Positions 1 through 5,312 of a stretch of 5,312 nt of DNA are shown in pieces. The stretch lies in assembly GCA_005880175.1 (NCBI GenBank), contig VBJR01000081.1, forward strand, positions 1-5,312, in the 5' to 3' direction. The number at the start of each line of letters is the position of its first letter. Position 1 is the first letter of the stretch. Origin of the DNA: Chloroflexota bacterium (lineage in GTDB: Bacteria; Chloroflexota; Dormibacteria; Dormibacterales; Dormibacteraceae). The position numbers and the translations under genes were made by a program. Below the pieces are notes generated by a model, which did not search any database, had not been told where the DNA came from, and worked only from the letters and a program-made list of their open reading frames with translations.

Positions 1-1122
1 CACGTTCTTGGGCGTGAAGTTGTTCGACCGGCCCACGAACGTCTTCTGGAAGCCGTTGCTCGTGTTCACGCCGATCGACGCCGCCTGCACGTCGCCGGGG
101 TTGGTCGCGTTCAGCGGCCGGGCCACGGTGAAGGACAGGTCGTCGGGGTACTGGTCGTTGTCCTCGGTCGCGAGGCCGAAGAACTGGGCGTCGGCCGGCG
201 CGTGCCGCGAGAGGTGGATCTCGAACCACTTGCCCGGGATCGACTGCACGGCGGCCATGTCGACCTCGAACTGGAACGTCCCGACCCGGTTGGCGAAGTC
301 GAACGTGCCGCGCGGCCGGATCGTGACCGCCGCGTCGCCCTCGCCGCTGATGATCTCGGTGTGGAAGTGGTGCTCCGAGACGAAGACCCGCGCCCGGTCG
401 TCGACGCCGTCAGGCGTGGTGGAGCCGTCGCGGAGCCGGACGTCGAAGTAGTTGGGGTCGAGCGCCCCGGACTGGGCCTCGTTGAAGTTCTCGAAGAAGA
501 CCGCGTTGGGCATCGCGCTCTGGGGGTCCGTCGGGCCCCACGCCGTCACCGGCGCCGAGAGGTGGCCGTTGGCGCCCATCGACTGGACCGCCACGGTGTA
601 CGTGTGGCCCGACTGGAGCCCGTTGCCGTCGGCGGCGGTCGCGGTGGCGGCCAGCACCTTCTCGCCCATCAGCGTGGCGCCGTCCCAGATCGACAAGAGC
701 TGCCAGGCCACGGAGCCGCCGGTGGCCGGCGTCCAGTTGGCCCGCACGGTGGAGTTGAGGCCGGTCGTCTTGAGGCCGGTCGGCGCCGGCAGCGCGCCGT
801 CGAAGCTGGTCGGCATGCCCGCCGGCACGGCCGGGGGCGGCGTCGCGGTCGGGGCCGCCTGGCTCGCCGTCACGTTCGGCGCCTGCTGGCCGGTCGCCGC
901 CTGGCCGGTCGCCGGGGCCTGGCCCACGCTGCCCGAGGGGCGGAGGCTGAGGTGATCGGTGGTCGTGAGCAGGGCGACCAGTACGCCGGCGCCCAGCGCG
1001 GCCACGAGCTGGAAGATCTGGAGCCCACGCCGGCGGTTCCGGCGCGTCCGAAGTGTGGGCCGAGGAGCGGGCCCCGGGTCGGGCAAGGAACCCGGGCGGC
1101 CGGGCTGCCATCGGTTTCTCAT
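1..1122 (-). CDS. Membrane-anchored Fn3 and jelly-roll-like surface protein, 3' end cut by window
   Basis: I read 374 codons from ATG at 1122 to the window edge with no stop, so the C-terminus is missing. The ATG is favoured by AGGGGG at 1137-1132, nine bases upstream. Residues 1-33 are Arg/Pro-rich and cytoplasmic. Residues 34-54 (LQIFQLVAALGAGVLVALL) form one membrane span or uncleaved signal anchor. A Gln/Ala/Pro/Thr-rich linker follows at about 65-108. Residues 111-200 look like an Fn3 domain (PAPTGLKTTGLNSTVRANW, then GHTYTVAVQSMGANG). From about 203 there is a beta-rich region (NAVFFENFNE; GTFQFEVDMAAVQS; KWFEIHLSR) resembling a concanavalin/LamG-type jelly roll. The family call is by eye. 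The protein probably faces outward and binds a polymer or glycan; no catalytic motif is seen. Its ectodomain resembles that of the membrane protein encoded at 3121-1577, and a terminator upstream suggests separate transcription. Confidence 0.82.
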   Translation of the reverse strand, partial: MRNRWQPGRPGSLPDPGPAPRPTLRTRRNRRRGLQIFQLVAALGAGVLVALLTTTDHLSLRPSGSVGQAPATGQAATGQQAPNVTASQAAPTATPPPAVPAGMPTSFDGALPAPTGLKTTGLNSTVRANWTPATGGSVAWQLLSIWDGATLMGEKVLAATATAADGNGLQSGHTYTVAVQSMGANGHLSAPVTAWGPTDPQSAMPNAVFFENFNEAQSGALDPNYFDVRLRDGSTTPDGVDDRARVFVSEHHFHTEIISGEGDAAVTIRPRGTFDFANRVGTFQFEVDMAAVQSIPGKWFEIHLSRHAPADAQFFGLATEDNDQYPDDLSFTVARPLNATNPGDVQAASIGVNTSNGFQKTFVGRSNNFTPKNV

Positions 1123-1144: not shown

Positions 1145-1159
1145 GGTTGGTTACCAACC
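1145..1159. promoter_or_regulatory. 7-bp inverted repeat, possible operator or leader hairpin
   Basis: GGTTGGT and ACCAACC flank a single base, an exact inverted repeat 23 to 37 bases upstream of ATG 1122 and just outside the ribosome binding site. The size and symmetry would suit a dimeric repressor site or a small leader hairpin. No known operator is recognised, and no convincing -35/-10 pair was found around it. Confidence 0.35.
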
Positions 1160-1210
1160 CTCCGAACCCCGCTGATGCCGAAAACGCTGACCCGCCGCCC
1201 GAAAAGTCCG

Positions 1211-1568: not shown

Positions 1569-1589
1569 GCCGAGCGCTAGCTCGGCGGC
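1569..1589. repeat. 21-bp palindromic element, copy 2, spanning a stop codon
   Basis: This copy is identical to 1220-1240. It forms a 7-bp perfect stem (GCCGAGC 1569-1575, GCTCGGC 1580-1586) with a 4-base loop, and the minus-strand TAG stop at 1579-1577 sits in the loop region. Unlike copy 1 it has no T tract on either strand, so it is probably not an intrinsic terminator by itself. It may stabilise the 3' end or assist factor-dependent termination. Confidence 0.75.
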
Positions 1590-3121
1590 GCCCAGACGGC
1601 CACGTCCTGGACCCACCAGGGGAGGCCGCTGGCCCCCGAGCCGCTCAGCGAGATCGTGGTCGTTCCCGCCGGGACGGGCATCCAGTAGCTCGCCTCGCCC
1701 GTCCCGGCGTCCTGGCCCTGCTGGGCCACCGCCGGCTGGGCGCCGTGGCCGTCGAAGCCGACCCTCGTCGACCCGAACGCGTAGAAGCGCAGGTGGCTGC
1801 CCGCCGGCGCCGGCTGGGGCAGCCGCAGCGTCGCCCCCTGGCCGTGGACCGACGCCACCCCGTTGGGCCGCAGCATCGTGAACGGCACCGACGGGTTGAT
1901 CGAGACGCTCCCCCACCGGTACGTGTTCGGCCCGCACGTCCCGTCGCCCCCGCACGCCTGCGCCGGCTGGAAGCTGTGGTGGGCGAACTGCACCACCGCC
2001 TGCGTGAACGGCAGCGAGACCCGGGCGTCGGCCAGGACCAGCGAGCCGCCGCCCGCCCGGGCCACCGAGAACTTCAGGTGGCCCTGCGAGACGTCGATCC
2101 GGAAGCTGCCCATCGTGTCCGCCGTCACCCGGCCGAGCGCGCTTTCCAGGCAGGGCTGGAAGCCCGGCCCATCGACCCGCGTCGCCTTGTGGTTGGCGAT
2201 CACCTCGACGTTGAACACCGTGCCGATCGCCACCCCGTTGGTCGAGCCCAGCGTGGCCGGCTGCCCCCCGCCGGCGCACGTGCCGTTGTTCATCCGGATG
2301 TGCACCGCGTCGGCCGGGTCGCCGTTGAACGCCGGCGCCTCGCCCGACGTCACCGGCGCGACCAGGTTCTGGTCGAACGGCGTCAGCCAGACGTCCCACC
2401 AGTCGTTCGCCGAGGCCCGCAGCGCCGAGACCTGCCAGCTGATCGCCGTGCCCTGGCCCACGTCCGCCAGCTGGGCCGGCGCGAGGAAGACGCCGCCGTA
2501 CGTCTTGGGCGCGTCGCCTCCGCCGTTGATCGCGGTCATCAGCTGGCCGCGGCACAGGTACGCCGAGTCGGCCAGCGCCTTGAGCGCGTGGGTGGCCGGC
2601 GGCGGCGCGCAGTCGCCCCCGAACCGGGCCTGCATCGAGCCGCCCTGGTCGCTCGGGAAGTCGCTGCTGGCCAGCAGGTCCCAGTCGTTGACCGCGCCCG
2701 GGGTCCACGGCTGCGGAGCCGCGGGCGCGGTGTTCCACGTGTAGGAGAAGTTCCCCACCGGCGCCGTCACGATCGGGGCCAGGGAGGGGGCGATCGTGGG
2801 CGCCGCCACCGGCGGGCGCGCCTCGTTCGTCTGCGGCGTCTGCTTGACCTGGGCCGTCCGCGGCAGCGCGCCCGTCGAGTGGAACGGGAGGCGGCCGGTC
2901 GTGCCCAGCACGGCGGTGACGGCGACGATCGCGGCGAGCAGGCCGGCGGCGACGGCCGGCCGGGCGACCCAGAAGCCCGACGGCGCGCGCGAGCGCCGCT
3001 GGCGGGTGAGCCGGTACCGCCCCCACGCCGGCCGCGGCGGCATCGGGATCCGCTCCAGCTCGCGGCTGAGGGCGTGCGGCCACTCGAGATCGAAGCGATC
3101 GTCCGGCTCGAGGTGGCTCAC
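1577..3121 (-). CDS. Single-pass membrane protein with large ectodomain, putative anti-sigma partner of the ECF factor
   Basis: The product is 514 residues, starting at GTG 3121 within the sigma gene stop (GTGA overlap). GAGAGGG lies five bases upstream. Residues 1-50 are charged and cytoplasmic; residues 53-73 (ARPAVAAGLLAAIVAVTAVL) form one membrane span; 80-125 is a Pro/Thr/Ala linker; about 125-514 is extracytoplasmic. The ectodomain has six Cys (171, 190, 282, 324, 390, 396), suited to disulfides, and Trp/aromatic-rich beta segments (DWWDVWLTPF at 240-249, YWMPVPAGTTTISLSG at 479-494), suggesting a jelly-roll or lectin-like fold. Translational coupling and topology make it the likely anti-sigma or sensor protein. 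However, the cytoplasmic part lacks the HxxxCxxC motif of zinc anti-sigma domains and I do not recognise its family. It could instead be an exported target cotranscribed with the sigma gene. Confidence 0.88.
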   Translation of the reverse strand: MSHLEPDDRFDLEWPHALSRELERIPMPPRPAWGRYRLTRQRRSRAPSGFWVARPAVAAGLLAAIVAVTAVLGTTGRLPFHSTGALPRTAQVKQTPQTNEARPPVAAPTIAPSLAPIVTAPVGNFSYTWNTAPAAPQPWTPGAVNDWDLLASSDFPSDQGGSMQARFGGDCAPPPATHALKALADSAYLCRGQLMTAINGGGDAPKTYGGVFLAPAQLADVGQGTAISWQVSALRASANDWWDVWLTPFDQNLVAPVTSGEAPAFNGDPADAVHIRMNNGTCAGGGQPATLGSTNGVAIGTVFNVEVIANHKATRVDGPGFQPCLESALGRVTADTMGSFRIDVSQGHLKFSVARAGGGSLVLADARVSLPFTQAVVQFAHHSFQPAQACGGDGTCGPNTYRWGSVSINPSVPFTMLRPNGVASVHGQGATLRLPQPAPAGSHLRFYAFGSTRVGFDGHGAQPAVAQQGQDAGTGEASYWMPVPAGTTTISLSGSGASGLPWWVQDVAVWAPPS

Positions 3122-3711
3122 TTCAACCCTCTCAACCCCGCTGAGTCCGATTTCGACGACTCCGGTCCGAAATCGCTCAGCAGCTCCTTCAACCGCGTAC
3201 GCGCTCGGACGATCCTGCCGCGTACGGTGCTCGCCGGGACGCCGAGCCCGGCGGCGATCTCCTCACCCGAATACCCATGGTAGTAGCGCAGGAGGAGCGC
3301 CGCCGCGTCGTCGGCGGACATCTCGCCCAGCGCCCGCATCACGACGAACGTCTCGTCGAGGGGCTGGGGCCGGGACGCGCGGTCGGTCAGGAGGGGGAGG
3401 TTGCGCCACATGCGGCGCCGCTTGTAGCTGCGGGAGACGTTGACGGCGATCCGGTGCAGCCACACCTCGACCGGGGCCTGGGGCCGCCAGCGGGGCCAGG
3501 CCCGGTACGCCCGGACGTACGTGTCCTGGGCGCAGTCCTCCGCCGCCGACGGGTCGCCGCCCAGCACCACCAGGCAGGTGCCGCGGATGCGATCGAACGT
3601 GAGGCGGTAGAGGACGTCGAAGTCCTCTGAGGATCCCGGTCTGAGGCGACTCAGCCGCTCCCGGCTCGAATCGCTGGACAGCTCTCCCCCGGCGCCGTCC
3701 ACGGCACGCAC
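3118..3711 (-). CDS. ECF-type RNA polymerase sigma-70 factor
   Basis: The product is a 197-residue cytoplasmic sigma factor that would direct RNA polymerase to a small set of promoters. Residues 29-100 match sigma-70 region 2: DFDVLYRLTFDRIRG, then AAEDCAQDTYVRAYRAWPRW (region 2.1-2.2 core) and VEVWLHRIAVNVSRSYKRRR (2.3-2.4, -10 recognition). Residues 124-178 match region 4 with its helix-turn-helix: MSADDAAALLLRYYHGYSGE, then IAAGLGVPASTVRGRIVRAR. There is no region 1 or 3 and the length is normal for the ECF group. The start is GTG 3711; no Shine-Dalgarno sequence is visible before it, and GTG 3702 is an alternative. The stop overlaps the start of the next gene by 4 bp, implying cotranscription and coupled translation with the membrane protein at 3121-1577. 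The ECF subgroup could not be assigned by eye. Confidence 0.95.
   Translation of the reverse strand: MRAVDGAGGELSSDSSRERLSRLRPGSSEDFDVLYRLTFDRIRGTCLVVLGGDPSAAEDCAQDTYVRAYRAWPRWRPQAPVEVWLHRIAVNVSRSYKRRRMWRNLPLLTDRASRPQPLDETFVVMRALGEMSADDAAALLLRYYHGYSGEEIAAGLGVPASTVRGRIVRARTRLKELLSDFGPESSKSDSAGLRGLK
3127..3133 (-). promoter_or_regulatory. Ribosome binding site of the 3121 gene, inside the sigma gene
   Basis: Minus-strand GAGAGGG lies five bases before GTG 3121, within the last codons of the sigma gene. It supports the GTG start and coupled translation. Confidence 0.6.
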
Positions 3712-3851: not shown

Positions 3852-5312
3852 TCAGCTGCCCCGGAGGGCCACGATCTCGGCCGTCATGGGTCCGCTGGAG
3901 GAGTTGGTCGCGGTCTTGGTCCCGGTCGATCCGGGCGTGGCCTGGAGGGCGTCCTGGGCCTCGTTGCTGTCGAAGTTGTAGCGGCGCGTCATCCCCGACC
4001 CCGCCGTCCAGCTCCCCGACTCGAAGTTCACGAACAGCGCCACCACCATGTCGTTGGCGGCGGTCGTCGTGACGGCCGGGGTGGTCGGGGTGGTCGTCGT
4101 CCCGGCGTCACGGCCGGCGCTGACGTCGATGGGGTTGGCCTGGTTGACGTTGGTGTAGGCGAGCAGTCCGATGTCCACCCACGGGGCTCCGCTCACCGTC
4201 CACGTGTAGCTCGCCGGCTCGCTCGCGCCCGCCAGCTTCCACCACACCTGCGTGTGGTACGCGCTCCCCGTGCCCCCGGCTCCCAACGTGTCCTGGATCC
4301 TCGTCCAGCCCGCCGGCCCGGTCACCGTCGCCGGGTCCTCGTCCACCTCCAGCGTCGCCAGCAGCAGGTCTCCCGCCGCCGTTCCGCTCGGCTTGCTCAC
4401 CGTCGTCCCGTTCGTCACCGTCGACGCGCTCCGGAACGCCGGCACCACCGGCGGCGCGTTCGTCGTCGTGAACGTGAGGTCCCCCGACACGCTCACCTGC
4501 CCGAACCCGTCCTTGCTCTGCACCCGGTAGTGGTACTGCGTGCTCGCCGACAGACCGCTCAGCGCCTGCGAGTGGCTCGTCACCAGCCCGCTCGATCCCG
4601 CGCTCGAGCCGTACGACGCCGTCAGACCGTACTGCACCGTCGTGTCCGACGCCGTGTCCGTCGTCCACGTCACCACGGCTCCTGACGCGCTGATACCGCT
4701 CGTCTGCACATTGCTGATCACCGGCGCCGCCGGCAGCGCCGTCGTGAACGTGAAGTCCCCCGACACCGCCACCGCTCCGCCCGGCGCTCCGCTCCTCACC
4801 CGGTAGTGGTACTGCGTCCCCGCGCTCAGCCCGCTCAAACCCACCGCGTGCGCCGTCACCGACGTCGAATCAACCGCCGTCGACGTCCCGTACGACACCG
4901 TCGGCCCGTACTCCACCTGGCTCGACGATCCCACGTCCGTCGTCCAGCCCACCGTCGCTCCCGTCTGCGTGATCCCGCTCGCTCCCACCCCGCTGATCAC
5001 CGGCGGCGGCGCGTTCGACACCGTCACGCTCACCCCGCTCGACGTCGTCGTGTTCCCCGCTCCGTCCGACGCCTGCGCACTCACCACGTGGCTCCCGTTC
5101 GACACCTGCGTCGAGTCCCACGTCGTCTGGTACGGCGGGCTCGTCAGCCGCGGACCCACGCTCGAACCGTCCACCTGGAACTGCACCGACGCCACTCCCA
5201 CGTTGTCGCTCGCGCTCGCGCTCAACACCACCGTCGTACCCGACACCGTCGCCCCCGCTCCCGGCGCCGTCACCGACACCGCCGGCGGCGTCGTGTCCGT
5301 CTGCAGCGGCTT
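3852..5312 (-). CDS. Modular exported protein with Ig-like and two Fn3 domains, 5' end cut by window
   Basis: The frame is open to the window edge: 486 residues plus the TGA stop at 3854-3852. The true start and any signal peptide lie outside; the GTG at 5279 is internal, since the 11 codons before it continue a typical Ig-like entry (DTTPPAVSVTAPGAG). Fragment residues 6-100 form a bacterial Ig-like domain (SASDNVGVASVQFQVDGSSV; SAQASDGAGN). Residues 103-192 and 196-284 are tandem Fn3 domains sharing TQYHYRV and SGD(F/L)TFTT. About 292-486 is a beta-rich C-terminal domain (GPAGWTRIQD; YHTQVWWKLAG; ALFVNFESGSW) ending in EIVALRGS, seen in many exported multidomain proteins but with no function I can name. 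There is no LPxTG motif or C-terminal membrane span. A role in adhesion or polysaccharide binding is inferred; any catalytic domain would lie upstream, outside the window. Confidence 0.9.
   Translation of the reverse strand, partial: KPLQTDTTPPAVSVTAPGAGATVSGTTVVLSASASDNVGVASVQFQVDGSSVGPRLTSPPYQTTWDSTQVSNGSHVVSAQASDGAGNTTTSSGVSVTVSNAPPPVISGVGASGITQTGATVGWTTDVGSSSQVEYGPTVSYGTSTAVDSTSVTAHAVGLSGLSAGTQYHYRVRSGAPGGAVAVSGDFTFTTALPAAPVISNVQTSGISASGAVVTWTTDTASDTTVQYGLTASYGSSAGSSGLVTSHSQALSGLSASTQYHYRVQSKDGFGQVSVSGDLTFTTTNAPPVVPAFRSASTVTNGTTVSKPSGTAAGDLLLATLEVDEDPATVTGPAGWTRIQDTLGAGGTGSAYHTQVWWKLAGASEPASYTWTVSGAPWVDIGLLAYTNVNQANPIDVSAGRDAGTTTTPTTPAVTTTAANDMVVALFVNFESGSWTAGSGMTRRYNFDSNEAQDALQATPGSTGTKTATNSSSGPMTAEIVALRGS
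4465..5016 (-). repeat. Two tandem 276-bp Fn3-coding units
   Basis: Units 5016-4741 and 4740-4465 each encode one Fn3 domain of 92 residues. Identical DNA words recur exactly 276 bp apart, for example CACCCGGTAGTGGTACTGCG at 4521 and 4797, and GTCGTGAACGTGA at 4465 and 4741. This indicates an in-frame duplication, with divergence in the middle of each unit. Confidence 0.8.

Follow-up and report, generated by a model that had tools for sequence, protein, structure and literature searches.

The window analyzed here is the whole stretch of 5,312 nucleotides at positions 1 to 5,312 of contig VBJR01000081.1 (assembly GCA_005880175.1), from a Chloroflexota bacterium of the Dormibacteraceae. Its minus strand encodes, in order, a Big_7/FN3 protein, an extracytoplasmic function (ECF) sigma factor, a 514-residue membrane protein, and a single-span protein with an FN3-like stretch (Table 1). 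Our subject is the middle pair, the sigma factor and the 514-residue protein. Their genes overlap as GTGA, where the TGA stop codon of the sigma gene meets the GTG start codon of the membrane-protein gene, as the initial annotation had read from the sequence.

Table 1. Features of the sigma/membrane-protein locus and its surroundings
Feature	Position	Strand	Basis
Big_7/FN3 protein gene, open at window end	3852-5312	minus	Pfam
ECF sigma factor, 197 residues, regions 2 and 4	3118..3711	minus	Open reading frame (ORF) call, Pfam/NCBIfam
GTGA stop/start overlap (possible translational coupling)	3118..3121	minus	Sequence
514-residue bitopic membrane protein, GTG start; proposed anti-sigma factor with lectin-like sensor	1577..3121	minus	
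Tail, residues 1-52, Cys-free, cytoplasmic; proposed sigma-binding part	2966..3121	minus	
Single transmembrane span, residues 56-74	2900..2956	minus	Hydrophobicity, model
Pro/Thr-rich linker, residues 75-120, predicted disordered	2762..2899	minus	pLDDT
Concanavalin/GH16-type beta jelly roll, residues 121-415	1877..2761	minus	Structure model
Small C-terminal beta domain, residues 424-511	1589..1852	minus	Structure model
CAGCGGGGTTnnGAGGGTTG element copy 1, at sigma 3' end, directly 5' of 514-residue protein gene (lead only)	3124..3143	minus	
CAGCGGGGTTnnGAGGGTTG element copy 2, 5' of next surface-protein gene (lead only)	1155..1174	minus	
Single-span protein with FN3-like stretch, cut by window end; possible co-regulated surface protein	1..1122	minus	

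The Sigma Factor and Its Overlapping Partner

The sigma protein matches the Pfam models Sigma70_r2 (1.1e-12) and Sigma70_r4_2 (7.2e-14) and the NCBIfam model TIGR02937 sigma70-ECF (55.4 bits against a cut-off of 42.9). With regions 2 and 4 above the cut-off, no match to region 3, and a length of 197 residues, it is an ECF sigma factor. No relatives of it were found in the viral contigs searched.

A protein search with the membrane protein returned 44 proteins, the window's own included, and a search with the sigma factor returned 192, of which 120 were listed. The alignment of the membrane-protein family (A1) holds 43 rows, including the window's own and omitting the fragment P0023. Among the matches listed, 10 of the 24 near membrane homologs (P0002-P0025) have a longest contig identical in size to that of a near sigma homolog (4020, 7877, 3593, 11300, 4249, 63009, 7693, 25745, 2754, and 6270 nucleotides), which suggests that a single contig carries both genes; the search names a single contig per cluster, the longest one, and pairing could be assessed for these 10. 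When the last residue of the sigma factor is compared with the first two residues of its partner, an NTGA overlap is compatible with the termini in 10 of the 11 contig-matched pairs, the window included, as judged from protein termini outside the window and from codons within it. Where an organism is named, the near homologs and the sigma relatives belong to Candidatus Dormibacteraeota, and the better sigma loci are assigned to Candidatus Dormiibacterota/Dormibacteraeota or Chloroflexi.

A Membrane Protein with a Cys-Free Tail and a Predicted Lectin-Type Ectodomain

The initial annotation had described a short tail, one membrane span, and a beta-rich ectodomain of about 390 residues with six cysteines, and each of these features was recovered. 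There is one hydrophobic span (Kyte-Doolittle 2.27), and the ectodomain, which probably lies outside the cell, has about 390 residues and is mainly beta in the structure model. The cysteines of the protein are solely those at positions 171, 190, 282, 324, 390, and 396, listed for the jelly roll as 171/190, 282/324, and 390/396; as had also been noted, residues 1-52 contain none. The tail is modeled as two helices, residues 9-24 with moderate confidence and 34-44 with low confidence, and the predicted local distance difference test score (pLDDT), from which the disorder of the linker is predicted, is <50 for residues 71-119.

The 514-residue protein falls below every family cut-off in Pfam and NCBIfam. 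Its ectodomain is modeled as the beta jelly-roll sandwich of the concanavalin A-like lectins/glucanases, which supports the earlier description of it as lectin-like. The Foldseek TM-scores are modest, at 0.31-0.61 by target length among the 50 matches listed, and the C-terminal beta domain is barely covered by the fold matches. No PDB chain matched residues 1-55 in sequence at E values up to 10; the sole PDB sequence match of the full protein, SusF (E 0.036), was treated as chance. The ectodomain is a family of its own, with a lectin-type fold in the model and a putative carbohydrate or other surface ligand.

The Ectodomain Also Occurs without the Tail and without a Sigma Gene

Among 400 genomes (phylum of G005), 17 have an ectodomain match, at 22 places; one of these, L051, is a weak partial match missing from the list obtained with the ectodomain hidden Markov model (HMM). 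Within flanks of about 1.5 kb, a sigma gene is present at L050 (G400) only, and none was found in five longer ectodomain stretches (L088-L092, 6-19 kb). At L050 the order is sigma gene, gene for a separate 164-residue bitopic protein that is anti-sigma-like, and ectodomain gene; the sigma factor is a remote relative on a long branch, scoring 120 bits where the intact Dormibacteria relatives score about 237-296. Within the class of G001, the ectodomain was found in 3 of 110 genomes, and the tail was seen in none of the three. The conserved N-terminal tail is confined to the sigma-linked lineage (23 of the 43 aligned rows). The initial annotation had held that many homologs away from a sigma gene would refute an anti-sigma role. 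Such homologs do exist among the distant relatives, but they also lack the tail, which indicates domain shuffling rather than refutation.

Two ectodomain loci, L087 (G400:C119) and L088 (G005:C81), have neighbors in common, which from their translations we take to be ComB-like and glycosyltransferase-like genes. Of these two loci, only that of G400 has the ectodomain gene next to genes for a sigma factor and an anti-sigma-like protein.

Partners of Related Sigma Factors

Of 400 genomes (phylum of G001), 38 contain sigma matches with E values no higher than 1e-25. We examined 37 sigma loci, comprising the 30 best places (L057-L086), L001, L010, L019, L021, L025, and L026 (chosen from 34), and L050. 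At 33 of them the sigma gene is followed by a gene for a bitopic protein, defined by a cytoplasmic tail of at least 28 residues plus a span; 120 of 1,643 random positions in the same loci satisfied this definition. Cysteine occurs in two of the 33 tails, both times within a doubtful N-terminal extension. None of the 10 short partner proteins scanned reached a Pfam or NCBIfam cut-off, and the comparison of one short partner with solved structures gave a chance-level sequence match. The earlier suggestion of an unrecognized anti-sigma class is plausible on these counts, but the anti-sigma function itself is something that we infer.

A second arrangement was seen at the 27 Dormibacteria sigma loci L001-L027, 18 of which (within L003-L024) carry an ORF of 60-81 residues that lies on the other strand from the sigma gene and in most cases some 5 kb away from it (for example, L004:3088-3216 minus and L010:7684-7812 minus). 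These ORFs are of the type MNDFDxxLExxLRxMLDPVVA.PPP.R and match the tail HMM with E values of 6.6e-11 to 0.011, and in 10 of the 18 a stretch is hydrophobic enough to pass the span threshold. They possibly encode a separate anti-sigma mini-protein.

In a sigma tree built by a quick method with a midpoint root and several open forks, the window clade (10 rows) adjoins a 62-row clade that mixes factors with short-tail partners and factors without an adjacent partner; P0074 falls between the two at a position that is not resolved. L026, whose sigma frame is interrupted, was for that reason omitted from the tree. The sigma gene at L026:7947-8926, which is 60 percent identical to that of the window over residues 25-180, is split across two frames, and the tail gene downstream of it is open.

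Promoter-Like and Repeat Elements

The pattern GG(GTA/TTG)-N-GCGTT was first noticed and then counted; it lies 5' of 27 of 52 tail genes, compared with 27 of 10,400 shuffled regions. A spacing of 15 occurs 38 times in 739 kb (92 loci), and the other spacings between 9 and 21 occur 0 to 6 times each. Of the 38 copies, 28 sit 5-32 bases 5' of a tail gene (26 flagged by script, and L015 and L077 assigned by eye) and one sits 5' of a sigma gene. The tail genes with the element lie in L001, L006-L026, and L057-L084, and the spacing-15 form is present in 1 of 37 sigma 5' regions. These counts are not independent, as the loci were picked via sigma genes and several are near-identical. The distribution fits a feedback design in which the anti-sigma genes would have an ECF-type promoter of their own.

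Within the window, CAGCGGGGTTnnGAGGGTTG occurs 5' of both membrane-protein genes (Table 1); the window's list of direct-repeat families has 48 entries, this one among them, and it was spotted before testing. Over 27 bases the two upstream regions share at best 23 identical positions, a value reached by 3 of 1,383 random pairs of 80-base stretches, and we treat a common element as a lead only. The product of the downstream gene has an FN3-like stretch that scores 20.2 bits, under the Pfam cut-off of 25. Alignment of its C-terminal region to the ectodomain profile is suggestive only (hhalign E 0.069, probability 0.8 percent), and its structure model (pLDDT 40) was not used. Similar GC-rich inverted repeats lie at 1569-1589, at the end of the 514-residue protein gene, and about 340 bases further on at 1216-1241; the latter is followed by a T run and is terminator-like.

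Interpretation and Alternative Explanations

We think it probable that the gene pair is a sigma/anti-sigma switch in which a short zinc-free tail is coupled to a lectin-fold sensor. The two-helix tail would tether the sigma factor to the membrane, and the span and flexible linker would connect this tail to a lectin-fold domain outside the cell. When a carbohydrate or another surface ligand binds, the ectodomain would change, and the tail would then let go of the sigma factor, probably via proteolysis in the membrane. The freed sigma factor would transcribe surface-protein genes, its neighbors perhaps among them. Such a protein could have arisen by fusion of an anti-sigma tail and span to an ectodomain otherwise found in secreted or surface proteins.

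A common kind for the window's tail and the tails of the short partners is suggestive only. Alignment of the tails alone by hhalign gave a score of 17.3 (E 0.0039), which was reached by none of 200 column shuffles (mean 7.8, maximum 14.2); column shuffling also destroys helix periodicity. A loose pattern (F/L/I-x3-hydrophobic, then L) is present in 29 of 33 short-partner tails, 22 of 23 window-family tails, and 297 of 6,600 shuffled tails, and a stricter pattern fits 27 of the 33 short partners and 28 of the 6,600 shuffled tails; both patterns were composed after viewing the two sets. Several results weigh against a switch of the proposed design. The probability for the tail-only alignment was low (8.5 percent), and that obtained with the span included (95.5 percent) derives partly from span composition. 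The stricter pattern fits none of the 23 window-family tails, and among 6,291 sequences the tail HMM matches a single window-family row (E 4.9). The second tail helix is the one modeled at low confidence. A search with residues 1-80 for other ectodomains on a window-type tail, among proteins of 283-900 residues, returned the same family only. Most of the loci L001-L027 have no adjacent downstream partner, and the GG(GTA/TTG)-N15-GCGTT element had no match in the window with either the strict or a looser pattern.

The explanation that we take most seriously besides the switch, and that we nevertheless consider unlikely, is that the 514-residue protein is a target of the sigma factor, a surface lectin or adhesin co-expressed with that factor without inhibiting it, the true anti-sigma factor lying elsewhere. 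The FN3/Big_7-type surface proteins encoded by the neighboring genes would suit such a role, as would the distant ectodomain relatives without a nearby sigma gene, the separate anti-sigma-like gene at L050, and the weak link between the window's tail and those of the short partners. Against it stand the restriction of the conserved tail to the sigma-linked lineage, the overlap of the two genes, and the bitopic proteins with Cys-free tails that are encoded after most of the sister sigma genes. A degenerate form of a classical class I anti-sigma factor, possibly of the zinc type, has very little probability in our estimate. The gene order and overall layout resemble those of many class I pairs (PMC7406223), but HxxxCxxC occurs in none of the 33 related tails or in residues 1-52, Pfam gave no match, and the class I domain of four helices described in that paper contrasts with two predicted here, the second at low confidence. 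The zinc anti-sigma identity was set aside on the absence of the motif and of cysteine in residues 1-52. We regard as similarly improbable a catalytically active GH16-like surface enzyme co-expressed with the sigma factor: GH16 glucanases rank among the best fold matches of the ectodomain model, but lectins score equally and the catalytic motif ExDxxE is absent from all 43 aligned rows, on which ground the enzyme identity was set aside.

A broader proposal that extends the sigma/anti-sigma switch is tentative, and we would hold it a little less readily than we would doubt it. It is that Dormibacteria possess an unnamed mini anti-sigma tail of about 40 Cys-free residues (roughly FxxxLxxELxR...P.P..R) that may serve as an exchangeable module, carried by short bitopic proteins next to sigma genes, by a 60-81-residue mini-protein whose hydrophobic stretch, if any, is weak, and by the lectin-headed sensor of the window lineage. 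The tail genes of the sister clade would be under a dedicated GG(GTA/TTG)-N15-GCGTT promoter, giving negative feedback. If the switch is real, the protein pattern and the promoter-like element could be used to annotate and test anti-sigma partners and regulons in Dormibacterota, where the partners are now mostly called "hypothetical protein" if they are named at all.

Comparison with Known Systems

The individual parts of this system are of known kinds; at the cut-offs used, the ectodomain, the window's tail, and the ten scanned short partners lie outside Pfam and NCBIfam families. No paper describing this sigma/membrane-protein pair was found in the open-licence literature searched. In ECF52 of Streptomyces coelicolor (SCO4117), as outlined in PMC8999054, a span and a Pro-rich region connect an ECF sigma factor with a domain that binds carbohydrate; there a single polypeptide includes a zinc-finger domain, whereas here two genes encode the parts and the tail is Cys-free. 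Compared with L-type/legume lectins, ERGIC-53/Emp46-47, and GH16 laminarinases, the window's protein shows 6-13 percent identity in the corresponding rows, lacks the GH16 catalytic motif, and has an extra C-terminal beta domain.

The class II anti-sigma factor CnrY wraps two helices around its sigma factor, at regions 2 and 4, according to PMC7406223 and PMC4598750. Like CnrH/CnrY, the pair described here combines an ECF sigma factor with a short zinc-free tail of two helices, which in the window's protein are predicted, but its ectodomain is far larger and residues 1-55 have no sequence match in the PDB. The SigI/RsgI systems of Clostridium thermocellum, according to PMC12203970, have a cytoplasmic sigma-binding N terminus of about 50 residues, one span, and an extracellular carbohydrate-type sensor. 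The initial annotation had likened the layout to RsgI while assigning the sigma factor to another type, and the arrangement holds: the size of the N-terminal tail, the single span, the proposed outward carbohydrate-type sensor, and the pairing with a sigma factor are alike, whereas the sigma factor matches ECF models rather than SigI and the ectodomain is a separate family. Neither Pfam nor NCBIfam gives an RsgI-type match for the 514-residue protein, and no periplasmic autocleavage domain was recognized in it. In layout the protein resembles RsgI, and in tail size and predicted helices CnrY. If the proposed switch is real, RsgI-like carbohydrate sensing would have evolved anew in an uncultured soil phylum, using an ECF sigma factor and a different kind of tail.
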